From assembly GCF_000975135.1 (NCBI RefSeq), contig NZ_BBRF01000001.1:1552380-1616379 (forward strand): a DNA stretch of 64,000 nucleotides, given 5' to 3'. The stretch is from Demequina aurantiaca. Its GTDB lineage: Bacteria > Actinomycetota > Actinomycetes > Actinomycetales > Demequinaceae. Position 1 is the stretch's first letter. The number at the start of each line of letters is the position of its first letter. Shown here piece by piece: positions 29,138-63,918 of the stretch. Under the pieces are notes generated by a model. It did not search any database. It was not told where the DNA came from and saw nothing but the letters and a program-made list of their open reading frames with translations. The position numbers and the translations under genes are program-made.

Positions 29138-30214
29138 CTAGACAGCCACTTCCACTCGCCGCAAGTAGTCATTTCCCCAACTGTAGGGTTTGAGTCTGCG
29201 ATGGTGAAGTTGTCCGACTGCGATTCCGGGTGACACACCTAGACGATTCGCGACGTCTTCTAAATCCGCGAAGGTTTGGACTAGTTCCAGGAGATGCGCC
29301 TTCTCGGGAGGTATGAGGGTGTCGGTTGCGAAGGCATCTGCCCTGAGCTCTGCTTCCGACCCCTGGCCCTTGGTGGATCCACCATTGATATAAATAGCAT
29401 CGGTGGGCCCCTCAAGCACGTGGCACAACTCGTGAAGGAGCGTGAACCACCAGATGTCCTCTCGCTTGCCACGGTCGGTGATCGCGACAATGACTCGGTC
29501 ATTGTCCCACAGCGTGACGCCGTTGCAGTGGGCTTTCGGGACATTGGGCAGGAATACCAAAGCGACGCCTGCGTGAGCAAGCATCTCACGCGCAGCGATG
29601 GCACCTCTGGCCGGCTGTTCAAGGGTCAGCGGAGGAATCCTTCCGATGCAGTCACGAACTCTGTCCAGATCGATGGGACTAGTGGTGAGGTGGTCCGCCT
29701 GACGCCTCGATAGCGCGAGAGTCACCTCGGTGGCGACAGGATCCGGAGTGAACGCATTCGACGTGCGGAAAGCGGCAGCTCGTCGTGTGGTCACGTGCGC
29801 AAGTGCGCTAGCTGATGTGACCCCCAAAAATTCATAGACCTGAATTGCCTGCTCGCCTCGATTGCCACGGGGCGCCGTGATAACTCCGCATGATCGGAGC
29901 AGGCGCATGAGTTGAGCCTCCACGGGAGACTCTGCAGTCGCCGCTTCCGCGATCGCGGCCGTACGTTTACGCGCAGCTCGATAGGCACCTTCCATGCGTA
30001 GCCAGGACTCAGCGGAGACCTGCGTGATCAGTTCGAGGTCGTGAGCCGTGTTGTCGGAAAGCGTTGCCTTTCCGTTGATCAGCTGACTCACGAACTTTTC
30101 AGACTTATCTATTCGATCTGCAAGATCGCGCTGAGACATGTTTCTCTCATCGAGCCATTCGTCCAGGATGGCGCCTGGGGAGGCGACGAGATGTGTAGGA
30201 ATAGCGGTATTCAT
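29138..30214 (-). CDS. higA: HigA-type antitoxin fused to an ImmA/IrrE metalloprotease domain
   Basis: This 358-aa protein has an XRE helix-turn-helix at about 15-65 (MSQRDLADRIDKSEKFVSQL), a helical linker, and a C-terminal ImmA/IrrE zinc protease domain with intact HExxH (LLHELCHVLEG). It lies 25 bp downstream of a HigB/RelE-like toxin gene. In such pairs the helix-turn-helix protein neutralises the toxin and represses the operon, while the protease domain may process regulators under stress. The inverted repeat at 30590-30608 is the likely operator. Confidence 0.85.
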   Translation of the reverse strand: MNTAIPTHLVASPGAILDEWLDERNMSQRDLADRIDKSEKFVSQLINGKATLSDNTAHDLELITQVSAESWLRMEGAYRAARKRTAAIAEAATAESPVEAQLMRLLRSCGVITAPRGNRGEQAIQVYEFLGVTSASALAHVTTRRAAAFRTSNAFTPDPVATEVTLALSRRQADHLTTSPIDLDRVRDCIGRIPPLTLEQPARGAIAAREMLAHAGVALVFLPNVPKAHCNGVTLWDNDRVIVAITDRGKREDIWWFTLLHELCHVLEGPTDAIYINGGSTKGQGSEAELRADAFATDTLIPPEKAHLLELVQTFADLEDVANRLGVSPGIAVGQLHHRRLKPYSWGNDYLRRVEVAV

Positions 30215-38645: not shown

Positions 38646-39164
38646 CTATTCGGGGTAGTTCTCTTGCCAGATGTCATCGAGCGCTTCTCGCGTATCTCTC
38701 GCAATCGAAGTATTAGGTAGCGCCGACTCAGATGCAACGGCACTCAAGTAGGCGCGACTCAGCTCGAAAAGTGGGTAGGTAGTTTCGCCTACGCTTACGG
38801 ACCGCGACTCGCCGATCGGAGCGTGCATGAGGCACCAACCCACGTCTTCGAACAGAGTTGCGGGCTCCGGGCCCGGGAGTACCGCGGCGACGATCTGCAA
38901 ATTTCTGACAGACTCGCGAATTTTATCGTACGGGTATGACCCGTGGTCAGCCTTTTGGTACAGGCGGATTGCATCTTCAGCTGCGTTCAAGCTCTCGGAG
39001 ATTTCCTTGATCGCTGCTTTGATCACCTGGCGCTTTTCACTGTTGATCTCGTCCTTGCGCTTGCGGGTGTATAGACGGGATCCCGAGTAGGCCGTGATTG
39101 CACCGCCGCCCACGCCAGCGAGCAGACTAGTGCTCAGCAAAGCAACCCAATCGGGGGCGTTCAT
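38646..39164 (-). CDS. Membrane-anchored helical protein, fourth gene of the type I operon
   Basis: This 172-aa protein starts MNAPDWVALLSTSLLAGVGG. It has one N-terminal membrane helix (about 7-26), a basic stop-transfer (RLYTRKRKDE) and a largely helical body that may form coiled coils (about 30-70). The ATG at 39162-39164 overlaps the hsdR stop (ATGA) and has a TGGAG ribosome site, so it is translationally coupled to the restriction subunit. No family is recognised. A regulatory or membrane-tethering role in the system is a guess. Confidence 0.65.
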   Translation of the reverse strand: MNAPDWVALLSTSLLAGVGGGAITAYSGSRLYTRKRKDEINSEKRQVIKAAIKEISESLNAAEDAIRLYQKADHGSYPYDKIRESVRNLQIVAAVLPGPEPATLFEDVGWCLMHAPIGESRSVSVGETTYPLFELSRAYLSAVASESALPNTSIARDTREALDDIWQENYPE

Positions 39165-42106
39165 GTTGCTCCATTGTAGGTTTGGCGGAAGACAGAGTCC
39201 TCGAGCCACTGCTTGAAGCTTTCATTGTCCGAGTACTGCTTGAACAGTTGTGTCTCGTCGGACAGCAGACCGAACATCACGCCTTGTAGCGCCCGGACCA
39301 TTTCGACCTTCGCATTCGCCTTGTCATTGTTCGCGATTGCGAGCTTGTAGCGCTCATCCTGCGCGACTTTCTCGGGCACCTCATTGGTGATGCGCTCCAT
39401 GATGCGGTCGCGGTCCTCCCAGGGGATGTTCCCAAAGTGGGCATTGAACGAGTCGAGGATCTCCGACAAGCGTGAGAACTCGGGATCGACGCGACCGCCC
39501 CCACCGCTATTCGGCACCGGATCCAACTCTCCGTCGTCCTCGTCAAGCGCGATCTTCATCGCCTCCCGCTTCTCCGCGCGGAACGAGTCCAGGTCGATTG
39601 TCTCTAGGAGCTCGTCAGAAGGGTTCTCGTACGGCGGCGACGGCAGCTTGGGCACCAAGAATCCCAGGAAGATCGACAACTTCTCCCAGGAGGCATTCGT
39701 ATAGGGAAGCACGGCACTCAAGAATCCATAGGTCCGCACGAACGCCTTGGCCGAGCCCTTGAACTCGACCTGATCATCCTCGTCGCGTTCGTTGTACTCC
39801 GCGACGCACGCGTCGAGCAACGGGTGGAGTTCGTCGATAGGCGCATCGCTCAGATACAGCGAGACAAACTCATCGACGTCCTCCGCCGTGTAGATCCCGG
39901 AGGCATTCAGTACAGCAGCCAGGTCGTTCAGCTTGTTCGGATCAGTCTCATCCGCCAGCACCGTCGTCTGGTAGTACGGCTGGAAGGAGACCTCGATACC
40001 TTCAACGTCATTCGCGAAGTCCAGTACCGCGCAGTCGTGCTTCTTGGGATGGGCCCGGTTCAGCCGCGACAGCGTCTGCACTGCCTTGACGCCCGACAGC
40101 GGCTTGTCCACATACATCGTGTGCAGCAGCGGCTCGTCGTACCCGGTCTGGAACTTGTCCGCGACAATCAGGAACCGGTAGGGGTCCTCGCGGATCATCG
40201 ACGGAATCTGCGCGCTCGGGAAGCCGTTGTACTGCGACTCCGTCACCTTGACGCCGTCACGCTCAACATCGGAGAACGCCACGATCGCCTTATAGGGCCG
40301 CTTGGTCTCAGCCAGGTACGCGGTCACGGCCTCGTAGTAATCAATCGCCCGGTCGATCGACGTCGTCACGATCATCGCGCGTGCCTCGCCACCGATCTTG
40401 CGCGGCTGGTACACCTGCGAGTGGAAGTGATCCACCATGATCTGCGCCTTCTGGCGAATCGCGTGCTTCTGACTCTCCACGTAGGTGCGCAGCTTCTGCG
40501 AAGCACGCTTGGCGTCGAACTCCGGGTCATCCTCGACGGTCTTGATGAGCTTGTAATACGTGTCCACGGGAATGTAGTTCGCCAGCACGTCCAGGATGAA
40601 CTTCTCCTGGATCGCCTGCTTCATGGTGTAACTGTGGAACGGCCGATGCTTCACCACGCCGTCTACGTCGAGTGGCTCGCCGAACGTCTCGAGAGTCTTG
40701 TTTTTGGGCGTCGCGGTGAACGCGAAATACGACGCATTCGGCAGCATCTTCTTGGACGACATGAGGCGGTTCAGCGCGTCCTCGACGTCCTCCACATCCG
40801 TATCCAGGCCGTCCTTGGACAGTGCCCGCGCCAGCGCCGCGGAAACCTTTCCGCCCTGACTGGAGTGAGCCTCGTCGATGATCACGGCAAAGTTCTTGTC
40901 GCGCTGTGCACCGCCCAGGTCCCGCACGATAAAGGGGAACTTCTGGACCGTGGTGATGATGATCTTTTTGCCACTCTCGATGGCCACGCGTAGGTCACTG
41001 GAGGACTCCGCGTGCACCACCGTCGAGCCAACCTGGGTGAACCCCGTGATGGTGTCGCGAATCTGACCGTCCAGAATCACGCGGTCCGTGACCACGATGA
41101 CCGAATCAAAGGCGTTCGAGCCCTGATGCTTGACCCCCACCAACTGATGAGCCAACCACGCGATCGAGTTCGACTTACCCGAGCCTGCCGAATGCTGAAT
41201 CAGGTAGCGCTTACCGCTTCCGACAGCCGACACGTCGGCGAGCAGAGCGCGCACCACGTCAAGTTGATGAAAGCGCGGGAAGATCGCCGATGCTGTCTTC
41301 TTCCCCGTCTTCGCGTCCTTGGTGCGGACGATGCTGGCATAGTTTTCGATGAGGTTCGCCAGGCTGCGTGGCTCGAGTATTTCGCGCCACAGGTAGTCCG
41401 TCATCACGCCGTCGGGGTTGGGCGGGTTGCCCGCGCCACCCTTGTACCCGCGATCAAACGGCAGGAACCACGACTGCGTGCCCGCGAGCTTGGTGCAGAA
41501 GCGCACGTGCGAGTCATCCACGGCGAAGTGCGCCATGCACCGCCCAAACTGGAAGATCAACTCCCGCGGGTCTCGATCTGTTTTGTACTGCTTGACCGCA
41601 TCCTCGACTGTCTGGTGGGTGATCGCGTTCTTCAGTTCGAATGTCGCGATGGGCAGGCCATTAACCGATGCGACCAGGTCCAGCGACTTCAACGTGTCGG
41701 TGGGGCTGTAGTGCACCTGGCGGGTAATGGTCAGCAGGTTGGCCGCAAAGCGTGCCTCGGCCTTCGCGTTGCCCGTCGTCGGCGAGGGGTAGTAGAGGTC
41801 GACGTGGTGCGGTCCATGAGAGACGCCATCTCGCAGGCAGGCGACGATGCCGTGCTTGGTGATCTCACCCTGCAGCCTCGCAAGGAACTTATGAACCGTG
41901 GGGGAGTCGCCACCAAGTGCGAGGGCCTCGAACTTCTCTGGCTGGGTGTCGCGGACGAACTCACGGAACGTAGCGAGGTCGACGCAGTAGGAGGCGTTGA
42001 AGTCCTTGGGGTCGCCCTGCTTCCAAGCAGGTGTGGAGGTCGAGCCACCGACCATCTGCGCAACGATGAGCTCCTCGAGGCTGGCTTCGTTCATGTTGGC
42101 TGGCAT
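39161..42106 (-). CDS. hsdR: Type I restriction endonuclease subunit R
   Basis: This 981-aa restriction and translocation subunit has a PD-(D/E)xK nuclease domain with D143 and E157-L-K159 (LPIATFELKN). SF2 helicase motifs follow: Walker A at 305-312 (HSAGSGKS), DEAH at 411-414, FTATPKNKTL, and the late motifs DKFQTGYDEP and QTLSRLNRAH. Length matches HsdR. It cuts unmethylated DNA after translocation. Its ATG overlaps the hsdS stop by 1 bp (TGATG). All key residues appear intact. Confidence 0.96.
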   Translation of the reverse strand: MPANMNEASLEELIVAQMVGGSTSTPAWKQGDPKDFNASYCVDLATFREFVRDTQPEKFEALALGGDSPTVHKFLARLQGEITKHGIVACLRDGVSHGPHHVDLYYPSPTTGNAKAEARFAANLLTITRQVHYSPTDTLKSLDLVASVNGLPIATFELKNAITHQTVEDAVKQYKTDRDPRELIFQFGRCMAHFAVDDSHVRFCTKLAGTQSWFLPFDRGYKGGAGNPPNPDGVMTDYLWREILEPRSLANLIENYASIVRTKDAKTGKKTASAIFPRFHQLDVVRALLADVSAVGSGKRYLIQHSAGSGKSNSIAWLAHQLVGVKHQGSNAFDSVIVVTDRVILDGQIRDTITGFTQVGSTVVHAESSSDLRVAIESGKKIIITTVQKFPFIVRDLGGAQRDKNFAVIIDEAHSSQGGKVSAALARALSKDGLDTDVEDVEDALNRLMSSKKMLPNASYFAFTATPKNKTLETFGEPLDVDGVVKHRPFHSYTMKQAIQEKFILDVLANYIPVDTYYKLIKTVEDDPEFDAKRASQKLRTYVESQKHAIRQKAQIMVDHFHSQVYQPRKIGGEARAMIVTTSIDRAIDYYEAVTAYLAETKRPYKAIVAFSDVERDGVKVTESQYNGFPSAQIPSMIREDPYRFLIVADKFQTGYDEPLLHTMYVDKPLSGVKAVQTLSRLNRAHPKKHDCAVLDFANDVEGIEVSFQPYYQTTVLADETDPNKLNDLAAVLNASGIYTAEDVDEFVSLYLSDAPIDELHPLLDACVAEYNERDEDDQVEFKGSAKAFVRTYGFLSAVLPYTNASWEKLSIFLGFLVPKLPSPPYENPSDELLETIDLDSFRAEKREAMKIALDEDDGELDPVPNSGGGGRVDPEFSRLSEILDSFNAHFGNIPWEDRDRIMERITNEVPEKVAQDERYKLAIANNDKANAKVEMVRALQGVMFGLLSDETQLFKQYSDNESFKQWLEDSVFRQTYNGAT

Positions 42107-43539
42107 CAGTCTTCTGCTCCCTCAACGGACTCCTCGGCGATGTCCTCCAGCGAGTCTCCTGCATCGTCGCTGGAGTTTGCAAGCATGTCGTCGGAAAGTT
42201 CCGGCAGCGTGGCCGCGATCTCGCGCACGTCGACCTGACCGGTGACGACATCCGAGATTAATCGGGTGCGGAACTCTCGCAGCAGCTCGATTTCCTGGGT
42301 GGTTCGATGCTGGGCTCTGCTGGCAACGCCACACTCAGTTTCGACGTGCTCGGCAATTTGAAGTTGTTCTTGGAAGGGGGGTAGCGGTAGCAACTGATTC
42401 TTGATCGCCGCGTGTTGAAGGCCATAGCGCGTCACGCCATTCGCGCGCACATGCAGTTGAGAGGCCAGAATTTCCGATTGAAGGACTCGGAGCAAGTAGG
42501 CGCCGGAGAGGGATCCCTGGTCAGGGCGCAGAAGCGCAAGGTGGTAGCCCGAGACTAGGTCTGGGCCGGGATCGACTACCAATGCGGGAACGCCAATGTC
42601 ACGCCAGTCCTCAGAGTCCTTTGTGATTAGCACGTCGCCATCTCTTAGCGCATAGCGCGAAATTTCATTGTCTGTGGCAGTGCAGGTCATGTACTCGAGC
42701 GAGTCTGTAAGGAATTCATTCTTGTAAACGTCGACGTAGTTGCAGAGACGTACTGGGGATTCGTCTACGGATGGAACCTTGTCGATGCTGCTCACACGCA
42801 TCTCTACGACACTTCGCAATCGAGTAACGCCCCAGGTGGCAGGTATCGTACCGAGCCAGGGGATGCCCGAGTCCTTGAGCGGCACGGTCGGGTCGAGGCC
42901 GCGGGTGACTGCCTGGTGGATTATGGCCTGCTTCTGTTCCTCGAGCAGCGCGATCAGCTTGCGCTTGGCGGCGATCGCCCGGTCGATCCGCGCGTGGGCG
43001 TGCCCAAGGTACTTGACGATGGCGGCCTGCTCGTCGGCGGGGGGTATTGGGAAGTAGATCATTTTGAAGTGCTCGGGTCGGAGACTCCACATGTCCGACG
43101 TAATTCCGTACGACCAACGTTCTGCCTCTTTGGCGAATGCCGGCGTTCGCATCAGATTCTCGAGGTACCTCGCGTCCGTGTCGCGAGGGCGCACAACCAC
43201 GTAGGCAGGACTCACGATTCCTCGGTGTTTGGAGAGTCCGATGGCACCTTGCCAAGCGCGCATCTTGTTGTAGGCGATGTCGCCGACTTCAACGAGTTTG
43301 TACTTGGACTTGTCGAGGTTCGAACTGTCTTTCTTCGACGAGCCAGCGAGCAACGTTGCCTGCGGGATGACACCACGGCTGATCGTTACCGAAAGCATCG
43401 GCTCGTTCTCGTGGCCGGGGATCTTCGACTCGTCGAACACAGCGCGGCCGGGCAGTACTCGCCACCGTGAAGGTGTTGCGCCGAACCAGTTTTTCTGGTT
43501 GCCGATCAGATCCTCGGACCGCTGCAAACCGTTGAACAT
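42106..43539 (-). CDS. hsdS: Type I restriction specificity subunit S
   Basis: This 477-aa subunit has two target-recognition domains separated by long helical spacers (first repeat ...FPIPPADEQAAIVKYLGHAH, second ...LLPLPPFQEQLQIAEHVETE), the usual half-subunit duplication. The repeats set a two-part DNA target; the target itself cannot be read from sequence. It overlaps both hsdM (TGATG) and hsdR. An acidic C-terminal tail follows the second repeat. Full length, no frameshift seen. Confidence 0.95.
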   Translation of the reverse strand: MFNGLQRSEDLIGNQKNWFGATPSRWRVLPGRAVFDESKIPGHENEPMLSVTISRGVIPQATLLAGSSKKDSSNLDKSKYKLVEVGDIAYNKMRAWQGAIGLSKHRGIVSPAYVVVRPRDTDARYLENLMRTPAFAKEAERWSYGITSDMWSLRPEHFKMIYFPIPPADEQAAIVKYLGHAHARIDRAIAAKRKLIALLEEQKQAIIHQAVTRGLDPTVPLKDSGIPWLGTIPATWGVTRLRSVVEMRVSSIDKVPSVDESPVRLCNYVDVYKNEFLTDSLEYMTCTATDNEISRYALRDGDVLITKDSEDWRDIGVPALVVDPGPDLVSGYHLALLRPDQGSLSGAYLLRVLQSEILASQLHVRANGVTRYGLQHAAIKNQLLPLPPFQEQLQIAEHVETECGVASRAQHRTTQEIELLREFRTRLISDVVTGQVDVREIAATLPELSDDMLANSSDDAGDSLEDIAEESVEGAED

Positions 43540-45488
43540 CAGCCGACGATCTCGTTCAGCAGGTCGTCAGTCTCTTCCTCAAGCGCGCGGATGTCGGCGC
43601 GGATCTCGTCGAGGGTGCGCATCGGTGTGGGCTTATAGAAGTGGCGGGTGAAGCTCACCTCGTAACCAATCTTGGTTTTGGAGTCGTCGATCCACGCATC
43701 GGCCGCGTAGGGGTGGACCTCGCGCGCGACGAAAGCCTCTATACCGTTCGCGTACTGGCCCGCGGGCTCGGTCAGAGGCACCTGCTCGGTGTCGCTGAGA
43801 TCGCTGTCGCGCTCGTACTCCACCACGCGCGTCTTGCCCGCGATCTCGATCTCGAATAGTCCGCGCATCGGGTCTGCTGCCGTGCCCACCCTATGAACCT
43901 TCTTGGTGACGGCGGGAGCATCGGCCGATCGTTTGGAGGTTTCCTTGAGCGCCTTGATCTCGGCTGCCTTGTAGACCCGGCCGGGCTCGGCATCGGCCAA
44001 ACGTAGAGGCCTGTCGACCGCAACCTTGTAGTAGCCAAAGTCGGCGTTGGAGAAGACCTTGGAGACGTCGGCATCGGCCTCGTCAAAGGCGTGGAAGGCC
44101 TCCATGATCTGCTCGATATTGGCGGTGGAGACTTCGCAGTTCTTGCTGCCCAGGTTCTTGCGCAGCGGCGTGAACCACTTGGTGGCGTCGATGAGCTGAA
44201 CCTTGCCCTTGCGGCGCTCCTGCTTGCGGTTGCTCACCACCCAGATGTAGGTGGCGATGCCCGTGTTGTAGAAGAGGTTGAGGGGCAGCGCGACGATCGC
44301 CTCGAGGTGGTCATTCTCGATGACGTAGCGACGGATGTTGGACTCGCCTTGGCCGGCGTCGCCCGTGAAGAGGCTGCTGCCGTTGTGAATCTCCGCGATG
44401 CGGCTACCCGTAGGGGTGTTGTGCTTCATCTTCGCGATCAGGTTGGCGAGGAAGAGCATCTGGCCGTCGCTGGACCGGGTGACGAGGCTGAACTCTGAGT
44501 CTCCCGCGTGAGTGACCTTGAAGCGGGGGTCGGTGATGTTCTTGGCGCCGCCCATGCGCTCCTGGTCGGTCTTCCACGACTTGCCGTACGGAGGGTTGGA
44601 GAGCATGAAGTCGAACTCCATGTTGCCGAACGCGTCATTGGACAGGGTGCTGTACTCGGGCCCGCCCTTGATGTTGTCCGCCGCGCGACCGTCTCCCTTG
44701 AGGATTAGGTCGGCTTTGGCGATGGCGTAGGTCTCAGCGTTGATCTCCTGGCCGTAGAGGTGGGTGGAGAGCTTCTTGTCGCCGGTGAGTTCGTTGAGGG
44801 TGTCCTCGGCGACGGTGAGCATTCCGCCGGTTCCCATGGCTCCGTCATACAGGAGATAGGTGCCCTCGGGGACGGTGTCGGCGATTGGTTCGAACATGAG
44901 GCGGGTCATGAGCTTGACGACGTCGCGAGGGGTCCAGTGCTCGCCGGCCTCCTCGTTGTTGGCCTCGTTGAACTTGCGCACCAGTTCCTCGAAGACGCTG
45001 CCCATGCCGTGATTGTCGAGGGCGTCTGGGGAGAGGTCTACCGACGGGTCGAGGAACTTCTCGATAAGGGTGCCCAGGGCGTCCGCTTTGGTGAGGCGGG
45101 GGATCTGATTGCGAAACTCGAAGTTCTCGAGAATCTCCTGGACGTTGGGGGAGAAGCCATCGAGGTAGGCCTCGAAGTCTTGGCGAAGCTGCGCTTGGCT
45201 GGTGGCCGATCGGAGGTCCTTGAGCGTGAACTGGCTGGTGTTGTAGAAGTCCTGCTGGGCTGCCTGGCGGAGCGGGGCGTCTTGGTTGGTGATGCCTGCG
45301 TTGTCGAGGCTTGTCTTTGCTTGCAGGACTTGTGCTTTGGTGGGTACGAGGACCGCGTCGAGGCGACGCAGGACGACCATAGGGAGAATGACGTCGCGGT
45401 ACTTGCCGCGGACGTACAGGTCGCGGAGGACGTCATCCGCGATGGACCAGATGAGGGACGCCATGCGGGCGTTGGTGGTGGCGTTCAT
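43539..45488 (-). CDS. hsdM: Type I DNA methyltransferase subunit M
   Basis: This 649-aa N6-adenine methyltransferase has an N-terminal helical HsdM_N-type domain, AdoMet motif I DGAMGTGGM (215-223) and catalytic NPPY at 298-301. It is longer than many HsdM proteins, with a C-terminal extension of about 130 residues rich in Lys/Glu/Asp. The ATG at 45486-45488 has a GAGGAG ribosome site. It is the first gene of the operon hsdM-hsdS-hsdR-membrane protein, so methylation is made first. Confidence 0.96.
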   Translation of the reverse strand: MNATTNARMASLIWSIADDVLRDLYVRGKYRDVILPMVVLRRLDAVLVPTKAQVLQAKTSLDNAGITNQDAPLRQAAQQDFYNTSQFTLKDLRSATSQAQLRQDFEAYLDGFSPNVQEILENFEFRNQIPRLTKADALGTLIEKFLDPSVDLSPDALDNHGMGSVFEELVRKFNEANNEEAGEHWTPRDVVKLMTRLMFEPIADTVPEGTYLLYDGAMGTGGMLTVAEDTLNELTGDKKLSTHLYGQEINAETYAIAKADLILKGDGRAADNIKGGPEYSTLSNDAFGNMEFDFMLSNPPYGKSWKTDQERMGGAKNITDPRFKVTHAGDSEFSLVTRSSDGQMLFLANLIAKMKHNTPTGSRIAEIHNGSSLFTGDAGQGESNIRRYVIENDHLEAIVALPLNLFYNTGIATYIWVVSNRKQERRKGKVQLIDATKWFTPLRKNLGSKNCEVSTANIEQIMEAFHAFDEADADVSKVFSNADFGYYKVAVDRPLRLADAEPGRVYKAAEIKALKETSKRSADAPAVTKKVHRVGTAADPMRGLFEIEIAGKTRVVEYERDSDLSDTEQVPLTEPAGQYANGIEAFVAREVHPYAADAWIDDSKTKIGYEVSFTRHFYKPTPMRTLDEIRADIRALEEETDDLLNEIVG

Positions 45489-45982
45489 GTGGTGAAACTC
45501 CTCAGCGTGGATGCCGCGACTGTGCGGCGTCCTGTGGACATCGGTGGTGGTCTGTCGTTCATCCTATTGGGGGTGGGTGACACGCGGGCGCGCGGACGTA
45601 CAGCCGGTAGTCCATGGGACGTTCCGCGAAACTGGTCGGCTTTGGCGTTTCGGGGAACTAGCGTTGCAGGACTTTGTCGATGTCGTGCTCGGGCGCCGGT
45701 GTGGGTTGCCTATAGCCCTGGCCGACATCAAGTATGGCCTCTTCTACATCGTCAACTTGCCTGCCGGCCGCTAAGTCTGACCAGTAAGTCGGGAAGGCGA
45801 CGTACGTTGCGTAGCGATCCGCATGTTCCGCAGCGCAGGAGGCTCCAAACTATGACCCCACAATCATCTGCGAAGGGCCTCGAAATCGCATCGCGATAAC
45901 TGAGGCAGTCGGCAACTCTTATGACACGACGCCCGAAGAGGCCGCGTGAGAGTCCAGCGCACGGCAAAGCCCCGAAAGACCA
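45489..45982. other. Intergenic region upstream of hsdM
   Basis: No supported gene in these 494 bp between the hsd operon and the OLD nuclease gene, which lies upstream on the same strand. It must hold the hsdM promoter; TAGGAT near 45563-45568 (minus strand) is a weak -10 candidate. No clear hairpin terminator for the OLD gene was found. Confidence 0.4.
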
Positions 45983-47860
45983 CTACGATTCGCGGGTAAG
46001 TGCACTCAGCATCCTCATTGCATCGGCCAAATCCGCTGGCACATCGGATGCATTTGCAAGATGCTTCACTATTTCGTTCATCATTGCGGGCTTTGTGCGC
46101 GGGCCGTTCTCGGACCCGTTGCCGAGCATCAATAGCACATCGGATGAAAACTTGACGCCCTCCCGGTGCACCGAGAAATCGCTATTCGCCCAATCCTTGC
46201 CATCAACACGCCGCCACACAGAATTGGCGACTGAAGCCCACGTCGCGTCGGAGAACAGGTCTTCAAGTTCTAATTTGCCTAGGTATGTTACGTCTACCAA
46301 TGGGTCGATTCCAACCCTTCTTAGCATGTTGGGCCTGAACATCCTCTTCGTGCTGTCTTGGGCCTTTGTGTCGGCGTCGATAACTAAATGGACTGTGCGG
46401 CCCAGTTTCTTGAGATGACCGGCTACCTTAATCGCGCCTTCATTTCCGTCTGCCGCCATAAGCACGAGTCCGACTGACTGCAACGGAAGGCCCACTACAA
46501 GCCTGAACAGCACGGGAAAGCACTGCTGCTCTGTAGCACCCTCGACTACGACGAAGCATTGCTCGTGTAGCAATACACTATTCCTGAGACCCATCGCCGA
46601 CGAGACATCTGACAGGTACGTAGCGATGTCGCGATCCTCAGTTCCGATCAGCCGGTCGACTCGCGTTAGCCCCGCCTCAAGTCCGAAGTGGGCGACATCG
46701 CTGATGTCTACTCGATCAATGAGATTTAGCGAGTGAGTTGCGACAACCATTCGGACATTTTCGCGCGAGCACTGGAGATGGAACAGGTCCATCAGTCGCC
46801 GCTGGCGACCGTAGTCGAGGTGTGTGTCTGGCTCGTCATAGGCAATGACGACACCGGGATCGTCTGGGTCAGATCCGCCGAGGATCTTAGATGACCATTC
46901 CCACACAGCCAACGTAACAAGACGTTTTCGCCCCGCGCCGGACTGCGCTAAAGATACGGTCGCGTTGCCCTCGCGCCCAGCGCTGAAGTCGACATTCTTG
47001 AAGCTCTCCGTTAGCGACACTGATGGGGCAATCTCAAGACTCGTGAGGTCGTCAACGGAAGTAAGTACATGTTCCTTGAGATCTTCAATCTCTTTCGCCA
47101 GCATTGCGTTCAGGTTCGATTCAATTGTGGCGATGCTGTCTCGAACTGACGGTTCGGCCATGTGAACCTTGAAGCTCGCCGCAAGCGCAGTTCTCACGTC
47201 GGCGGCAGGATCCGGCTCCGCAGTGCTCGAGAACAACACAAAGCGCGGCAATCGCTCCAACACCGTTTTCGGGCACTCGGCCCAATCGGTGGACTTCTTG
47301 GCTGCAGTGGCCGCAGCGCGGAGCGGCTCCAAGAAACTCGTCTTGGTGTTGGCCGGTCCCGTTGGGGCAATCCCTAGTTCATGGCACCGCTTCTTCAATT
47401 CGGTGAGTGACAAGTTCTCGAAGCCTCGAAGTCGTTCTTCGAGAGGGAACTCGCCCTCCAGTTCATACCGCGGGGCGCAACCGCGCTCTACAGATCGGCG
47501 CAAACGTAGCCGCTTTGCCAATTCGAGAGACGCGACCTCGCTATCTCGAAGTTGGAAGGTTCCAGTAACCGCGACTCGGGGGACCGGGCCCATCGGAAGC
47601 GCATCGTTGCCGTTTAATCCTCGTGCAACCATTGTGGCTTCGGCGTCGAGGTCTTCGTCTGAGTTTCCCTCCGTGACGTCAAACCTTGTGTAGTCGTGCT
47701 CCCCAATCAACCCTTCGCCGAGCAAGAACCCGAGAGCCCGCAGCGACGCGCTCTTCCCTGCGTCGTTGTGGCCCGTGAGAATCGCTGGCTTACCCACAGG
47801 GATGTTCTTTACATCTGCGAGCGCGCGATAGCCCTCTACGTCAAAATGAACGAGATCCAT
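45983..47860 (-). CDS. OLD-family ATPase/TOPRIM nuclease
   Basis: This 625-aa protein has Walker A GHNDAGKS (30-37), an ABC-type signature region (AQSGAGRKRLV) and Walker B/D-loop (VVIAYDEPDTHLD). A C-terminal TOPRIM domain follows (VVVEGATEQQCFPVLF, then VLMAADGNEG and VIDADTK), carrying the metal-binding Glu/Asp. This SMC-like ATPase plus TOPRIM layout defines OLD nucleases; relatives include Gabija GajA and other phage-defence proteins. No UvrD-like GajB partner is next to it. A KTSC gene 29 bp upstream is probably in the same operon. Confidence 0.9.
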   Translation of the reverse strand: MDLVHFDVEGYRALADVKNIPVGKPAILTGHNDAGKSASLRALGFLLGEGLIGEHDYTRFDVTEGNSDEDLDAEATMVARGLNGNDALPMGPVPRVAVTGTFQLRDSEVASLELAKRLRLRRSVERGCAPRYELEGEFPLEERLRGFENLSLTELKKRCHELGIAPTGPANTKTSFLEPLRAAATAAKKSTDWAECPKTVLERLPRFVLFSSTAEPDPAADVRTALAASFKVHMAEPSVRDSIATIESNLNAMLAKEIEDLKEHVLTSVDDLTSLEIAPSVSLTESFKNVDFSAGREGNATVSLAQSGAGRKRLVTLAVWEWSSKILGGSDPDDPGVVIAYDEPDTHLDYGRQRRLMDLFHLQCSRENVRMVVATHSLNLIDRVDISDVAHFGLEAGLTRVDRLIGTEDRDIATYLSDVSSAMGLRNSVLLHEQCFVVVEGATEQQCFPVLFRLVVGLPLQSVGLVLMAADGNEGAIKVAGHLKKLGRTVHLVIDADTKAQDSTKRMFRPNMLRRVGIDPLVDVTYLGKLELEDLFSDATWASVANSVWRRVDGKDWANSDFSVHREGVKFSSDVLLMLGNGSENGPRTKPAMMNEIVKHLANASDVPADLADAMRMLSALTRES

Positions 47861-57624: not shown

Positions 57625-60096
57625 ATGCTGTTGAAGTCCGTTCACCTGTCTGTGTCCCGAGCGGTGGCGATGCTACTGGCCCTCGTGCTGGTCGTCGGGA
57701 GTGCAGTTGCTGTAGCAGCTCCCGCACGGGCCGCGACTGGAGATTCCGTTACCGATGGAAACGTCACTGCTACGTGGCTCGACACCACGTTTCACACGGA
57801 CGGCAACAATAACGGCCGCCCTGACGCGGGCGACGTCGTCGTGGTGCACTACGAGATCTCGGCGGCGCTAGGCTCTGGTCTGACGGAAATCACGCTCGAA
57901 TCCTTGCAGGTTGGAGGCGACCACGAGCCCGTCGGCCCCCAGGTTGTCGCGCTGCCGCACACCGTCAACTTTTCGGCACTGGTGACCGCGGACGACCTCG
58001 ACCCGTTGGGTGGCGGCCCTCATTACAGCCCAGTGAACTTCAGGTACCGCATCGGTTCGGGCGCCACACTGCGGGTGCCCCTGAGCCCGCCTCCGTTGAT
58101 CTATACGCCTCCGACGCCAGTGACCGTCGCAAGCTTCGTTGAACTCGAAGGAGGCGGCACACTGCCAAGCGACGGGCTGGTGGAGGGCGACCGCGTCCGG
58201 TTCGCCGCCACGGTGAGCAACGAGTCGGCAGTGGCCGTCTCGCTGGGAGGCGCCGCGAGGCTTGACTCATCGCCTTCGCTTCCTACGTCACTAGCCGCCG
58301 GCGATACGACCACCCTCCACGGCGCGTGGCACACGGTCACGTTCGCGGATATGCGTGCTGGCTCAGTGCAGTTTGCCGCAACTTCGGTGGAGTGGAGCGT
58401 GGAGAGCTTGAGCGGATCGGCACCTGTCGCCGCAGTGAGCGCGACAACTGCGGTGCCTGTGGTCAGCTACACCACCCACTTTGACACGGTGATCCATAGC
58501 CCCGGATATGGCGTGGAACGCGCCTTCGGTGACGCGCAAGTCGGCGATCTCCTGGACCGCACCTACGTGGCCACCAACACGGGCAACGTGGTTCTCAATT
58601 ATTTCGCCATGACTAACTCCCACTCGGGGTACTTTTTCTACGATGTGGGCCTGAAACCTGGAGAGTCGATTCCCGAATCCGGTCTCAGTACGTCTAACGA
58701 TCTCGCAAAAGGCACGAGCCTGCCGGGTGGCTACTTCGAATCCGACCGCCACACTCTCACAGCGGCAGACATTCAACGAGGCTACGTCGATGTGTCCGGG
58801 CGAATGGGGGTATCTCCCTCGTTCGATGAGCAAGCGTGGGGAAGTTCTGGGCCAGTGACCACGCGTGTATTTCTGCGCGAGTTGACGGCTGACGTGAGCT
58901 GGACCGCCGACGCCGAGCTTCAGGACACCAATGGCGACGGTGTGGGCCAGTCGGGCGAGGAGGTCAAACTCACGTGGACCGCCGCCCTTCCGGCCGATGC
59001 TGACCAGAGTGTGACGCTCGGCGCGGTGACCGAGTCGGGTCAGTTTGGTGCCGTGGGGGCCGCGTTTGATGGCGTTCAGTTGGCGCCCGGCGAGTCGTCG
59101 ACGCACACCGACACCGTCACGATCGATGCCGCCTGGCTTGCCTCCGGCGCGCTCGACTACACCGCGACGCTGTCCTATTCAGGTGACATCGACGATGCGG
59201 AGGGTAAAGCGGTTGCCGGCGCCGATGCTGTGGCTCTCGGCGAGTACGTGGCACCTCCCGTGTCACTCGCGGTTGTCGGCTCATTTGACGACCTGAACGG
59301 CGACGGCAAGGCGTCGCTGGGCGAAACGGTGACCTTCGACGTCACTGTCGCCAACGACGGGACCTACCCGCTGACCGGGGTGACCTTGGGTGAGGCCGGG
59401 GGTGCGACTCTTGATCCCGCCGTTCTTGCCGTGAATGCTGTGCTGCCTGGCGCATCGGCCGCCTGGAGTGCGACGCACGTGGTGACCCCAGCCGATCTTG
59501 CCGCCGGATCCGTGTCCTATTCGCCCACGGTGGACGCCGATGGCATGACGACGCTCACGAAGACTGGCTCGGTTTCGCCGCTGACCTTTGCCGCGTACGA
59601 GTCCGACCTTGATGGCGTCGCGCAAGGCGGCGTGGCGATTTGTTCCGCGGCGGGCGAGCATGTAGGTAGCGCCGTTCAGGGCGACTCCGTCACGGTGGTC
59701 TTGGACGCGTGTGGCGGTGCTGCGCTTGAGGACGATTCGCGGATTGTGGCGTTCTCGTCGCCGATACTCCTTGGGGTTGGCGCCGCACCCGTCACCATTC
59801 CTTCCGCGCTGGCCGCCGGCGACCACCGCATTGCTGTTTATGGCGCGGATGGTGGGCTGGTTGGTTGGGCGCCCGTCGCGATCACCGCACCGGTGACGGC
59901 GGAAGTGGCTCCGACCGTCACCGCGCAGGCAGCCGACCCGGTGGCCGACGGTGCCCCCGTCGCGACCGGAGGTGAGCTTTCGACGACCGGTGCCGAGGGC
60001 ATCGGCCCGATGCTGTGGCTCGCTGCCGCTTTGATGCTCGCCGGGGCCGGGGGGCTGGTCCTTGCACGCCGCCGATGGTCAGGGGTGGACGCGTAA
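57625..60096 (+). CDS. Cell-wall surface protein with sortase-type end and calcium-binding-like repeats
   Basis: This 823-aa exported protein has a signal peptide ending ARAATG. Repeated beta-sandwich modules each open with an EF-hand-like Asp loop: TDGNNNGRPDAGDVV, QDTNGDGVGQSGEEV and DLNGDGKASLGETV. Between them are CARDB/DUF11-type adhesin-like strands. The C-terminus reads LSTTGAEG, then a hydrophobic helix and ARRRW, the layout of a sortase signal with an LxxTG variant rather than LPxTG. It probably sits on the wall, taking up Ca2+ for rigidity. The partner sortase is not in the window. Confidence 0.8.
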   Translation: MLLKSVHLSVSRAVAMLLALVLVVGSAVAVAAPARAATGDSVTDGNVTATWLDTTFHTDGNNNGRPDAGDVVVVHYEISAALGSGLTEITLESLQVGGDHEPVGPQVVALPHTVNFSALVTADDLDPLGGGPHYSPVNFRYRIGSGATLRVPLSPPPLIYTPPTPVTVASFVELEGGGTLPSDGLVEGDRVRFAATVSNESAVAVSLGGAARLDSSPSLPTSLAAGDTTTLHGAWHTVTFADMRAGSVQFAATSVEWSVESLSGSAPVAAVSATTAVPVVSYTTHFDTVIHSPGYGVERAFGDAQVGDLLDRTYVATNTGNVVLNYFAMTNSHSGYFFYDVGLKPGESIPESGLSTSNDLAKGTSLPGGYFESDRHTLTAADIQRGYVDVSGRMGVSPSFDEQAWGSSGPVTTRVFLRELTADVSWTADAELQDTNGDGVGQSGEEVKLTWTAALPADADQSVTLGAVTESGQFGAVGAAFDGVQLAPGESSTHTDTVTIDAAWLASGALDYTATLSYSGDIDDAEGKAVAGADAVALGEYVAPPVSLAVVGSFDDLNGDGKASLGETVTFDVTVANDGTYPLTGVTLGEAGGATLDPAVLAVNAVLPGASAAWSATHVVTPADLAAGSVSYSPTVDADGMTTLTKTGSVSPLTFAAYESDLDGVAQGGVAICSAAGEHVGSAVQGDSVTVVLDACGGAALEDDSRIVAFSSPILLGVGAAPVTIPSALAAGDHRIAVYGADGGLVGWAPVAITAPVTAEVAPTVTAQAADPVADGAPVATGGELSTTGAEGIGPMLWLAAALMLAGAGGLVLARRRWSGVDA

Positions 60097-60286
60097 TTTC
60101 TGGCACGTGGCGCGTGGCGCGTGCTCGCTTGTCGCGTAGGGTGCCGGATGCGTAGTTCTTAGGGGCTTGGACGCGTGGTCTCTGCCGTGCCGGGCGGGTG
60201 TTCACAGGCCCGCGTTGCGCGGGGGTTGTCCACAGATTTCTGGGGCGCGCGGGCTGGCTGTCAGTCCCTTTTGGTTGAATTGTCCT

Positions 60287-61753
60287 ATGAGCACGACCGC
60301 CGGCATTGAAGCCGATCTCGACACTGATAGCAGGGACGATGCTGTCTGCGACGCGGTCGTGCGGGTGCGCGAGCGGTTGGTGTCGGGCACCGGGTGGACA
60401 GGCATAGATCTGGATTCATTGCCGAGCGATGATCTGCTCGCTTCCCACCGTGAATTGGCCCGCATGAGACGTCAACTTGACGCGATGGTTGCCTCCTCGA
60501 GCGCCGCGATCGCCCGGCGTTCCATGCGTGAGAACGGGCAGCAGGGGATGGCCAAGCGCCAGGGATACCGGACACCTGAAGAGCTATTGGCGAGCATCTC
60601 GGGTGGCAGCACGGGCGAGGCCCGCGGTCTCATCGAAGTGGGCGACATGTTGGCTTCCGATGAGCGCGAGGCGTGTGCTGGCGAAGGCTCAGGTGATTTG
60701 CAGGAGGCCGGGGTGGTTGAGATTTCCCCGCGGTTCGCCATAGTGAGTGACAGGGTGCGGGCCGGCAAGCTCCACACCGATGCGGGACGTCTCATCAAGC
60801 GAATGCTGACTCGGATCTGGGGCCGACGCAAGGACCTGGGCGTGAAACTGTGTGACATCGAGCGGGTGGAGCGCATGCTCGTGGAGCGAGCCCACGGTTT
60901 GTCGTCCAACAAGTTTGCACGCATCGTGCGTCAACTGGAGGCCCAGATGGATGCTGGGCGTCATGCGCTGACCGAGGAACTCCAGCGCCAGGAACGCTCG
61001 GTGACCATGTACGAGGACCAGGAGGGGATGTTCGTACTGCGGGCGCGGCTGGATGCGGAGACGGCAGCTCCGGTGCGGGCCGCCCTCGACTCGCTCGTGG
61101 GCAATGCCTTACACAACCGGCGCGACAACAACGGCGTGGCCACTGACGACGGCCAGGTGATGGCGGATGACCGATCCGTCCCGCAGATCCGCGCGGATGC
61201 CCTCGCCGCCCTTGCCCGCCACTGCCTGGGATGCAAGAGCGAGGACCTGCCCTTCGCGTCCACCACGGTAGTGGTGCGGTTGAGCCTGGCCGACCTGCAG
61301 GACGGCACCGGGGTCGCCGAGATCGACGGTGGAAGCCAGCCGGTCTGCATCTCCACCGCCCGCAGAATGGCCGCAAATGGTGCCGTGATTCCCGTTGTGC
61401 TCGGTGGCAAGGGCGAGATTCTTGACCTTGGACGCGGTTCACGGCCCTTCAGCTACGCGCAACGCATCGCTCTCATTGAACGCGATGGGGGCTGCGCCTT
61501 CTGCGGTGCTCCGCCGGCCTACACGGAGGCACATCACATCAGATGGTGGGCCAGAGACCGAGGCCGAACCGACCTGGAAAACGGTGTGTTGTTGTGCTCG
61601 GTTTGCCACCATCGCGTTCATCGCGACGACTGGGAAATAGGCGTCCGAGACAACCAGGTGTGGTTCAGGCCGCCTGCGGCCGTTGATCCCGAACGCAAAC
61701 CGCGACTAGGCGGCCGAGCAAGATTTGGGCCACCCAAGATCGAAGCCGCGTAG
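60287..61753 (+). CDS. DUF222/13E12-repeat HNH endonuclease
   Basis: This 488-aa protein has an N-terminal DUF222 region (about 20-330) and a C-terminal HNH nuclease with CAFCGAPPAYTEAHHI and LLCSVCHHRVHRDDW. It provides two CxxC zinc knuckles and the catalytic His pair. Such genes are multicopy in many actinomycetes and may be mobile or competence-related; function unproven. The chosen ATG at 60287 has no good ribosome site; the longer frame from 60167 is less likely. Confidence 0.88.
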   Translation: MSTTAGIEADLDTDSRDDAVCDAVVRVRERLVSGTGWTGIDLDSLPSDDLLASHRELARMRRQLDAMVASSSAAIARRSMRENGQQGMAKRQGYRTPEELLASISGGSTGEARGLIEVGDMLASDEREACAGEGSGDLQEAGVVEISPRFAIVSDRVRAGKLHTDAGRLIKRMLTRIWGRRKDLGVKLCDIERVERMLVERAHGLSSNKFARIVRQLEAQMDAGRHALTEELQRQERSVTMYEDQEGMFVLRARLDAETAAPVRAALDSLVGNALHNRRDNNGVATDDGQVMADDRSVPQIRADALAALARHCLGCKSEDLPFASTTVVVRLSLADLQDGTGVAEIDGGSQPVCISTARRMAANGAVIPVVLGGKGEILDLGRGSRPFSYAQRIALIERDGGCAFCGAPPAYTEAHHIRWWARDRGRTDLENGVLLCSVCHHRVHRDDWEIGVRDNQVWFRPPAAVDPERKPRLGGRARFGPPKIEAA

Positions 61754-61927
61754 TCACAGATACTTGGCGCCTGCGTATCGGTACTTCTTGAGGGGAATTG
61801 ACGTCGCGGAGCCTGCCGTCGAGCCCTTGTTTGGTGGGGCCGGGACGAATCCACGACCACAGAGGTGCGACCGATTCGTCAAGGTTTTTGCCCCTACGGG
61901 GCACTCGGACGAGGCGCCAATGTGGCC

Positions 61928-61993
61928 TTGACAGCATCGGCCGCAGTGGGTGTATGGTCCTGGCTTCTCGACGCCAATTGATTGGGTGTCGAG
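61928..61993 (+). promoter_or_regulatory. Consensus promoter followed by a 5' stem-loop
   Basis: TTGACA (61928-61933), 18-nt spacer and TATGGT (61952-61957). The spacer contains GCATCGGC (61934-61941). Transcription should start near 61964. At 61967-61993 CTCGACGCC...GGTGTCGAG folds into a stem of about nine pairs, placing a hairpin at the very 5' end of the mRNA for the operon starting at 62028. No gene is seen in 61754-62027. Confidence 0.65.
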
Positions 61994-62027
61994 CCCTCCC
62001 CACACCAACTGACGTCAGGAGAACTCT

Positions 62028-62306
62028 GTGAAATCGCACGCCGAAACGCAGCCATTTGCTCACCCGGAACATATCGAAATGCATGAGATTCAGCTCACCG
62101 TGACGCTGGCCTTCGACTCCCGGAGCGCTCTGTCCATCCTGACCAACGCGAAGTCGCCCATGGACCGGGAGTTCCTCCTGACCAAGACCGCATTCGAACT
62201 CTTCACGGGCTACCTCGATCACCTCAATGGCATGGACGAAAAAGGTCGCCCGGCCACGGAGGTGATTATTGGCCTACGGCCGCCCGGCACGTGTCAGACC
62301 CCCTAG
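62028..62306 (+). CDS. Uncharacterised 92-aa protein, first gene of the NYN operon
   Basis: This protein starts with GTG (MKSHAETQPFAHPEHIEMHE). Strand ITLxx-like segments (IQLTVTLAFDSRSALSIL) and a helix (EFLLTKTAFELFTGYLDHL) follow. No family recognised. AGGAGA lies 6 nt before the start. It follows the strong promoter and 5' stem-loop. The NYN gene starts 59 bp after its stop. Confidence 0.65.
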   Translation: MKSHAETQPFAHPEHIEMHEIQLTVTLAFDSRSALSILTNAKSPMDREFLLTKTAFELFTGYLDHLNGMDEKGRPATEVIIGLRPPGTCQTP

Positions 62307-62365
62307 ATACATTGAAATCACTGCACCACTACGTGCACCGCCAACGAGTCTGAGGGGACCACACC

Positions 62366-63010
62366 ATGAACGTCATCGGCATCACCGTCGCCAGTATTTC
62401 TGCCCACGAGGTCGTACCAGTCGACCGTAAAGTCGTACCAGTTGACCGTCAGGTCGTGCCGGTCGACCATAAAGTCGCACTGGTCGACCGTCGGGCCGCA
62501 CCGATCATTTCTGAGTTTGAACCGATCTCGCACGGCGGCGCTGCCGGTCGCCGCCTGATCGTCGCCGACCTCGAGAACCTGCTCGGCTGCAAGCCGGCCG
62601 ATGCCGAGCCTTCGCTGTGGGATGAGGCCTTCGAGGGTCTCGTTGACAGCATCGCGTTCGATGCCGAAGTCGACCAGCTCGTGATCGGCGTCGATCCCCA
62701 GTGGGCCTTCACGGTGTTCGACCTCGCACCAGCGGCGCGTCTCGTCACCAGGTCAGGGGAGTCGGGAGCCGACATCGCGCTGTGCGAGGTTCTGAGTGAC
62801 TACGACTTCATCGCCCGTCGTTTCACTGAGGTAGTGATCGCGAGTGGCGACCATGAGTTCGTGCGCTCCGTGGGGCAACTTCGCTACCGCAACGTCGTGA
62901 CGACTGTCGCCTCGAGGGGAGCCGGACTGAACTGCACGTTGGCCGAGATTGCCGACCGCGTCATCAACCTCGCCACTCCTATGCGCCACGAGCTCGCGCT
63001 CGCGGCCTAG
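62366..63010 (+). CDS. NYN/PIN-like nuclease with N-terminal VVPVDRK repeat
   Basis: This 214-aa protein has an N-terminal segment (about 16-43) of four tandem heptads (VVPVDRK, VVPVDRQ, VVPVDHK, VALVDRR). A NYN-like fold follows: LIVADLENLL (Asp/Glu pair), SGADIALCEVL and VVIASGDHEFV, the usual acidic residues of RNA-cutting NYN domains. It is probably an RNase. A GAGGGG ribosome site precedes the ATG. The gene for a 33-aa Cys-rich protein follows 14 bp after its stop. Confidence 0.75.
   Translation: MNVIGITVASISAHEVVPVDRKVVPVDRQVVPVDHKVALVDRRAAPIISEFEPISHGGAAGRRLIVADLENLLGCKPADAEPSLWDEAFEGLVDSIAFDAEVDQLVIGVDPQWAFTVFDLAPAARLVTRSGESGADIALCEVLSDYDFIARRFTEVVIASGDHEFVRSVGQLRYRNVVTTVASRGAGLNCTLAEIADRVINLATPMRHELALAA
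62411..62494 (+). repeat. Four 21-bp tandem repeats inside the NYN-like gene
   Basis: Units of 21 bp at 62411-62431, 62432-62452, 62453-62473 and 62474-62494, starting GTCGTACCAG, GTCGTACCAG, GTCGTGCCGG and GTCGCACTGG. Each encodes one heptad of the VxPVDRK type. The length is a multiple of three, so copy changes would keep the frame. Confidence 0.9.
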
Positions 63011-63024
63011 GTGGGGGAGCCGCA

Positions 63025-63126
63025 ATGGGAGACAAGCAGTTGTGCCCGGAGAAATGCGTCGTAACGTGGCATCCCAATGGCGACATCACGGTCGAGTGCC
63101 GCTGCCCGGGGGACTGCCGTGCCTAG
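63025..63126 (+). CDS. 33-aa Cys-rich microprotein
   Basis: The peptide reads MGDKQLCPEKCVVTWHPNGD then ITVECRCPGDCRA: cysteines at 7, 11, 25, 27 and 31 plus His16 in a likely metal-binding or disulfide-bonded fold. GGGGGAG lies 6 nt before the ATG at 63025, a strong ribosome site. It follows the NYN-like gene by 14 bp and probably shares its mRNA. No family recognised; too short for standard gene finders. Confidence 0.65.
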   Translation: MGDKQLCPEKCVVTWHPNGDITVECRCPGDCRA

Positions 63127-63321: not shown

Positions 63322-63918
63322 CTACTCGTCGTCGACGTCGTCCGCCACACGCACGTTGTCGGCGAGGAAACGTGACAACTGCGGGTGGAGAACTGCAGCG
63401 TGGTTGGTGCTTTGCGTGAGGTCCTCTCCGTCGAGCGCGTCGATCTGCGCAGTCTCCTCCGCGGTCAGCACTCGGTACGGGTCACGGACCAGCGAGATCG
63501 CGGCATCCTCGTCCAGCACCTCGAGGATCGACTGGATCTTGTCCTTGATCGCGAGAGCCTCGGGGTCTACCGCGACGGCGGCCTTGAAGAACGCGACGTA
63601 ATCCTCGCTGAGGAAGCGGTTTCCGCGCTCAGAGTCGAGCATGTGCTCCAGCCCGGTCGCCAGCAGAATCTCCGCGGGAACGAGTTCGCGCTCGGGGTCA
63701 TTGATCAGGAGAGTCGCGGCATCGGCCGGGAACGAGTCCAGCAGCGCCTGCACGTCACGCTTCATGCCCTCGAGAACCTTCTCAGCCGACGCCTGGAACT
63801 GCTGGGCGTAGGCATCCGCCTCGGCGGCATTCGTGGGGATGTTGGTGGGCGCCTCCGGGGCAGTGCCCGTCTGCGAGGCGTCGTCGCTGGATGAAGGGTC
63901 GTGGTTCTCAGAAGTCAT
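63322..63918 (-). CDS. Uncharacterised acidic protein, 198 aa
   Basis: This protein starts MTSENHDPSSSDDASQTGTA. The first 35 residues are disordered. The rest is mostly helical and acidic (YAQQFQASAEKVLEGMKRDV, then NDPERELVPAEILL), ending VADDVDDE. No family recognised. The ATG at 63916-63918 has TACGGT 6 nt upstream and no ribosome site. Confidence 0.6.
   Translation of the reverse strand: MTSENHDPSSSDDASQTGTAPEAPTNIPTNAAEADAYAQQFQASAEKVLEGMKRDVQALLDSFPADAATLLINDPERELVPAEILLATGLEHMLDSERGNRFLSEDYVAFFKAAVAVDPEALAIKDKIQSILEVLDEDAAISLVRDPYRVLTAEETAQIDALDGEDLTQSTNHAAVLHPQLSRFLADNVRVADDVDDE

Follow-up and report, generated by a model that had tools for sequence, protein, structure and literature searches.

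A putative NYN-type nuclease of Demequina aurantiaca ends in Leu-Ala-Ala (LAA), and the same three residues close the protein in 12/12 members of its clade within the genus (the protein studied here, that of D. oxidasica, and those of ten further congeners). We consider the chances about even that this is a toxin-like, NYN-type nuclease with an inherent ClpXP C-degron, coming from a methylase-linked, defense-type family and standing here as an orphan. The gene lies in the 64,000-nucleotide stretch of DNA that was analyzed as a whole (the window), taken from a 2.57-Mb genome in 6 contigs. A sequence-only reading of the window had presented the gene as part of a possible RNA-processing operon, behind a promoter, a 5′-terminal stem-loop, and a 92-amino-acid (aa) protein and ahead of a 33-aa microprotein. 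The coordinates of all of these features held, in this order (Table 1), with ribosome sites ahead of the 92-aa and NYN ORFs.

Table 1. Features of the locus in the window
Feature	Position	Strand	Basis
Promoter-like pair TTGACA (61928-61933), spacer of 19, TATGGT (61953-61958)	61928..61958	+	Sequence
Leader hairpin, 9-bp stem, 9-nt loop, close to where the transcript is inferred to start	61967..61993	+	Fold
92-aa protein of no known family, with a GTG start	62028..62306	+	AGGAGA 5 nt upstream; counterpart in D. oxidasica
NYN-like nuclease, 214 aa	62366..63010	+	Pfam NYN below cutoff; family profile match; GAGGGG 8 nt upstream
Tandem repeat of 21-bp units that encodes four degenerate heptads	62411..62491	+	Repeat finding; 21 residues missing in D. 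oxidasica
Putative catalytic Asp D68 codon (DLEN motif)	62567..62569	+	Invariant in alignment A5
Putative catalytic Asp D136 codon (GAD motif)	62771..62773	+	≥90% conserved in A5
Putative catalytic Asp D162 codon (SGD motif)	62849..62851	+	≥90% conserved in A5
C-terminal Leu-Ala-Ala plus stop, inferred ssrA-like C-degron	62999..63010	+	12/12 clade members; tmRNA tag end
33-aa microprotein	63025..63126	+	14 nt past the NYN stop; dN/dS between two species

The window protein ends in ELALAA and then the stop codon, i.e., in an xAA end with nothing behind it, and the tmRNA tag of the same genome (ADSKRTDFALAA) ends in FALAA. The genome carries a ClpX gene (632 bits) as well as the tmRNA gene. Counted from the C terminus across the clade, positions −1 to −3 are identical in 12/12 members, positions −4 and −5 in 8/12, and the rest of the last 30 in ≤5/12; this count ignores gaps, and unequal linkers blur the positions ahead of the tail. 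The Leu codon is CTC in 10 members, CTA in 1, and CTG in 1, the Ala codons GCG/GCC are split 6/6 and 4/8, and the stop codon that follows is TAG (8), TGA (3), or TAA (1). From the SG[DS]H motif to the end, the proteins span 50 to 93 residues. Such varied codons and unequal linkers before a constant LAA point to selection on these residues as a peptide and as the last residues of the protein. The 12 clade members are not independent, as they share one ancestor; the clade has an SH-aLRT value of 99 in a quick tree, on which the ends change between AA and other residues at least 5 times.

For background, we counted 333 predicted genes in 464 kb of the source genome, of which 6 end in AA and 2, including the NYN gene, end in LAA, with the caution that the genes came from a heuristic gene finder and some ORFs may be spurious. 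On three actinobacterial plasmid stretches, the corresponding counts among 131 annotated genes were 7 and 2, a baseline from which we removed five coding sequences truncated at the edges of the stretches and an IS3 transposase with a length not divisible by three. Among NYN relatives outside the clade, 21/31 end in AA and 5/31 in LAA (nominal Fisher P = 2.5e-13 for AA, with kinship ignored and the relatives taken as independent). The other ends, found in 10/31, include three relatives that adjoin a methylase (L087, L113, and L116). L012, with an ORF cut by a contig end, was dropped before these counts, which also exclude L112, i.e., the window gene itself, and L130, a second fragment from a genome that is already represented; L127, which starts in another frame, is in the tail counts and not in the tree. 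Neither the alignment nor the counts include L083 and L084, in which the NYN match lies in a long ORF of a different type.

According to a passage of PMC7652416, no part of the ssrA tag matters more to ClpXP than Ala-Ala-COO−, and further proteins of the cell are targeted through AA degrons of a related kind; the same paper finds that Escherichia coli ClpXP did not degrade green fluorescent protein (GFP) with a bare LAA, whereas it degraded GFP with YALAA. Since bare LAA was insufficient on GFP, short tails may not work. The E. coli ClpXP substrates of the C-motif-1 type end in LAA, NAA, PAA, or EAA according to a section of PMC9775585. For mycobacteria, part of PMC3946367 reports that the last five residues of WhiB1 destabilize GFP in a ClpP2-dependent manner and that a WhiB1 fusion with a blocked C terminus is toxic; its authors found no consensus motif among the substrates of their mycobacterial Clp screen.

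We then placed the protein by homology. On its own, it scored 21.2 bits against Pfam NYN (PF01936), below the cutoff of 24.2, and the PADLOC NYN model matched it weakly (E = 2e-4, residues 155-202). A profile built from 42 family sequences matched the NYN domain of MARF1 (5yaa, E = 3.4e-6 over 135 profile positions; 6fdl, 2.7e-5) and VPA0982 (2qip, E = 1.2e-3), and 31/42 of its members matched PF01936 at an E value of 0.01 or better. The acidic active-site residues, the absence of which would have refuted the sequence-only reading by its own account, are present: D68, D136, and D162 align with D358, D426, and D452 of MARF1, with identical spacings of 68 and 26, and the latter three are named as active-site Asp residues in a passage of PMC11346440. 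By its family profile and Asp triad, the window protein is assigned to the NYN/PIN-like superfamily. An AlphaFold2 model, for which the input was two near-identical sequences, had a pLDDT of 31 and was set aside. The relevant part of PMC6294520 describes the NYN domain of MARF1 as an endoribonuclease, and from homology to characterized NYN domains the window protein is most likely an RNase, with a DNA substrate also possible in view of the methylases beside its relatives. The RNA-processing role proposed for the locus is likewise an inference from NYN homology, and many distant relatives adjoin DNA methylases.

Between D. aurantiaca and D. oxidasica, the catalytic part of the NYN gene has a dN/dS (NG86) of 0.028, compared with 0.35 for the repeat-bearing N-terminal part. 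The latter contains the repeats that had been described as four VVPVDRK heptads. Four heptads do exist, but only one reads VVPVDRK exactly; the others are degenerate (VVPVDRQ, VVPVDHK, and VALVDRR), and together they form a 21-bp tandem repeat of 3.9 copies with 78% matches. No such heptads were seen in the NYN relatives of other congeners, and we read them as a copy-variable linker rather than a functional core. Three clade members (L006, L009, and L011) have lost D162, with SGSH in place of SGDH and DAQN or DAQT in place of D.EN. These three NYN proteins are probably inactive. They nevertheless keep LAA and a longer tail, which means that the tail does not go with an active nuclease only.

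Many members of the wider family adjoin N-6 DNA methylases. Actinobacterial plasmids carry NYN proteins that are 27 to 37% identical to the window protein, share its motifs, and end in AA in 4/6 cases. By annotation, four of the six immediately precede an N-6 DNA methylase gene and the other two do not; one of the plasmid methylases matches PF02384 at 138 bits. We searched the window and 41 loci, 42 sequences in all, with these four methylases by tblastn and found one beside ten further relatives outside the clade: it follows the NYN gene in the same orientation in L077, L111, L113, and L116 and is divergent from it in L122-L126 and L129. The divergent loci (~1.3 to 2.2 kb) belong to another actinobacterial family, and their NYN proteins, divergent from the methylase relative, end in RAA, QAA, or CAA. 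Overall, a methylase adjoins 14/31 NYN relatives outside the clade, and 11 of those 14 end in AA. Unlike four of the six plasmid genes, the Demequina genes examined have no such partner beside them: no N-6 methylase was found within ~1.5 kb (contig permitting) of the window gene or of 13 other Demequina NYN loci. The only methylase match in the window is a type I HsdM gene ~17 kb from the NYN gene. These arrangements suggest that the NYN family belongs to a defense-type nuclease-methylase module of which the Demequina copies are orphans. As many relatives outside the genus end in AA and adjoin an N-6 methylase, the protein may be a toxin-like effector of such a methylase-linked module.

The HsdM gene (43539-45488) itself is part of a defense-like cluster on the minus strand (39161-47860). 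The cluster also holds a type I restriction HsdR gene (39161-42106), a 477-aa ORF between HsdR and HsdM at the place expected for HsdS, and an OLD-like AAA ATPase/TOPRIM protein (45983-47860).

To place the nuclease and its two small neighbors in the genus, we searched for their relatives. NYN relatives occur in 12/36 congeners searched: ten belong to the clade of the window protein, L012 is cut by the contig, and L013 is distant. All three ORFs recur, with their order unchanged, at the D. oxidasica locus L015 (3663-3941, 4001-4582, and 4591 onward). A second genome, G670, was set aside as a third species with the triad, being identical to L015 over 3,594 bases. In the ten other clade loci, the DUF222, 92-aa, 33-aa, and 198-aa neighbors of the window gene are all absent; some of these loci have common flanks, e.g., L004 with L005 and L006 with L011. 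The co-conservation of three genes that the operon idea called for therefore mostly fails: gene order is kept in D. oxidasica, but searches found neither small gene in the genomes of the ten other clade congeners. As far as searched, the triad appears to be a trait of two sister species, whereas the nuclease is more widespread, and a conserved operon is weakly supported. No phage record matched the NYN protein; in IMG/VR, 63 stretches fitted a pattern and none was confirmed.

Divergence from D. oxidasica is uneven along the locus. In a sliding comparison it is mostly 2 to 4% up to ~62210 and then jumps to ~15%, an abrupt change within the 92-aa gene that probably marks a recombination break. 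On the upstream side, ~4 kb of the window (58380-62210), including a DUF222-HNH gene, is 96% identical to L015 before the abrupt fall to ~85%. The low-divergence tract takes in the promoter-like pair, the hairpin, and codons 1 to 61 of the 92-aa gene, so that their identity between the species is weak evidence of constraint. Past the break, 14 codons of the 92-aa gene carry synonymous changes and 3 carry nonsynonymous ones. This ORF, an unknown protein in the sequence-only reading, has no family match; its predicted model, of low confidence (pLDDT 61), has two helices. It was not found at an E value of 0.001 or better in 58 other genomes, including those of the 10 other NYN-clade congeners; a further 296 genomes gave nothing convincing (best E = 0.037), and phages, plasmids, and IMG/VR gave no match. 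A minus-strand ORF at 61665-62222 is open in D. oxidasica too.

The ORF of the Cys-rich 33-aa microprotein recurs in D. oxidasica with a dN/dS (NG86) of 0.044, with 13 synonymous changes in 20 sites and 5 nonsynonymous changes in 79 sites (P = 7e-8 by Fisher's test). Their codon changes show that both this ORF and the NYN gene are translated. Cys 7, 11, 25, and 31 are kept in D. oxidasica and Cys 27 is not; with four shared Cys residues, the protein may bind metal. The genomes of the ten other clade members gave no match at an E value of 10 or better, and plasmids gave none; the phage search yielded two entries of one archaeal virus at E = 3. Among 59 relatives, there were 31 weak matches besides the protein itself (best E = 0.019); the 19 of these with loci were inspected by eye and rejected. 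A scan of the ten other clade loci for the four-Cys pattern, which recovered the D. oxidasica copy, gave look-alikes in L003, L004, L006, L007, and L011. Look-alikes of this kind are common by chance, the pattern occurring 268 times in 464 kb; the most similar one, just behind the L007 NYN gene, was rejected because it lacks a start codon and a different reading frame overlaps it.

Upstream of the three genes, the "one strong promoter" of the sequence-only reading is present as a TTGACA/TATGGT pair that matches 10/12 consensus bases. Its strength is not supported: a promoter scan with spacers of 16 to 18 detected no promoter there because the spacer is 19. The 5′-terminal stem-loop exists as well. 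As a 35-nt piece it folds at −14.2 kcal/mol and beats shuffled sequences (z = −3.5), and the z score weakens with length, to −1.8 in 68 nt and −1.1 in 104 nt. Two Rfam candidates were rejected: a guanidine-III riboswitch at 61885-61929, upstream of the promoter-like site, scored 18.7 bits against a gathering score of 36 and is probably a chance match, and a mir-658 match was below threshold.

In the reading that we favor, the protein would be an endonuclease of the NYN type that binds metal through three aspartates as MARF1 does and is most likely an RNase. Its ELALAA end would imitate the end of the tmRNA tag and thus serve as a ClpXP C-degron from birth, such that proteolysis keeps the nuclease scarce and it acts when something shields its C terminus or when Clp capacity runs out. 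Masking or steering it could be the part of the 92-aa and 33-aa proteins. A more specific version, in which the nuclease gauges ribosome-rescue load by competing with ssrA-tagged proteins for the same ClpXP, seems quite improbable to us. Under it, stalled ribosomes (from phage, antibiotics, or damaged mRNA) would flood the protease, the nuclease would survive and cut nucleic acid, and the resulting cleavage would arrest the cell or the invader; in methylase-adjoining relatives, the methylase or its DNA binding would shield the tail. A conserved ssrA-like end would be a way of holding a potentially toxic nuclease in check without a dedicated antitoxin, and it could link ribosome rescue to nuclease activation. 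The usual C-terminal tags on these NYN proteins could stabilize them and so mislead experiments.

The AA or LAA could instead be a structural or binding end, e.g., for packing of the last strand or docking of a partner, with no degron function. Two observations fit this: in a class-level group (L115 and L117-L120), the AA or LAA end follows close behind the last conserved hydrophobic stretch, and the three clade members with degenerate active sites retain LAA. In Demequina, however, LAA is constant despite a 43-residue spread in the length of what follows SG[DS]H, and it matches both the tmRNA tag end and the published C-motif-1 pattern; we think a structural or binding end rather unlikely. 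It is similarly not very likely that an ordinary orphan NYN gene has come to adjoin two unrelated small genes by accident. The restriction of the triad to two sister species among the genomes searched favors such a grouping, as does the finding that 0/10 other clade loci have the window's neighbors, but strong purifying selection acts on the catalytic part of the NYN gene and on the 33-aa ORF, and the order is kept in D. oxidasica.

A toxin-antitoxin pair, in which the 92-aa (or 33-aa) protein neutralizes an NYN toxin, would account for a small gene followed by a nuclease gene, each with a ribosome site, and for a short protein with two predicted helices. Type II pairs are expected to have a co-conserved partner, but the 92-aa gene was found in 0/58 other genomes and the NYN gene persists without it in the 10 other clade congeners; we think this reading unlikely. 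We regard as highly improbable the original proposal of a self-controlling RNA-processing operon whose nuclease cuts the 5′ hairpin. The hairpin alone does beat shuffles and the three Asp residues are intact; against this, its identity in D. oxidasica falls within the low-divergence tract, and a 5′ stem can be read more simply, as an operator dyad or as protection of the mRNA.

NYN nucleases and AA-ended Clp substrates are each already known. Among the former, MARF1 (5yaa and 6fdl) shares the Asp triad, its spacing, and the profile match with the window protein, but it is a large eukaryotic multidomain protein, unlike the 214-aa bacterial protein with its predicted activity. VPA0982 (2qip) and a Bacteroides fragilis CRISPR-associated NYN protein are bacterial and have three Asp residues as in the window protein; the latter, part of a type III CRISPR system, is an Mn-dependent RNase in the portion of PMC11346440 that treats it. 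Among the latter, C-motif-1 substrates of ClpXP, i.e., the ssrA tag and E. coli YdaM, LldD, Gcp, and RplJ, have LAA or xAA ends (section of PMC9775585), whereas here a single nuclease family conserves the AA end and the degron is predicted. The Acinetobacter baumannii Hcp protein also has a native AA end, which its authors speculate, in a passage of PMC11731876, to be an SsrA-like ClpXP signal; Hcp is a secretion tube protein and no nuclease. The nearest mechanistic likeness is Caulobacter SocB, a toxin held low by ClpXP (excerpt of PMC5422525). SocB requires the adaptor SocA, and its likeness to the window nuclease is one of proposed mechanism. A literature search, with most subscription papers outside its reach, found no family-wide pairing of NYN with an AA degron and nothing joining an NYN domain with an N-6 DNA methylase or Demequina with NYN; PMC10853773 has NYN only in its reference list.

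Downstream of the triad, on the minus strand (63322-63918), lies a 198-aa protein with no family match above cutoff. It is 95% identical in D. oxidasica (G670) and 34 to 36% identical in two more of 44 genus genomes, where its relatives adjoin an ORF that resembles SbcD by eye. In D. oxidasica, an extra gene (L015:4841-5422), an SNase-like lipoprotein by eye, separates the 33-aa ORF from the 198-aa gene, and no ORF resembling it occurs at the corresponding place in the window. Elsewhere in the window, a minus-strand gene (29138-30214) encodes a protein with a helix-turn-helix and an ImmA/IrrE-type metallopeptidase (Peptidase_M78).
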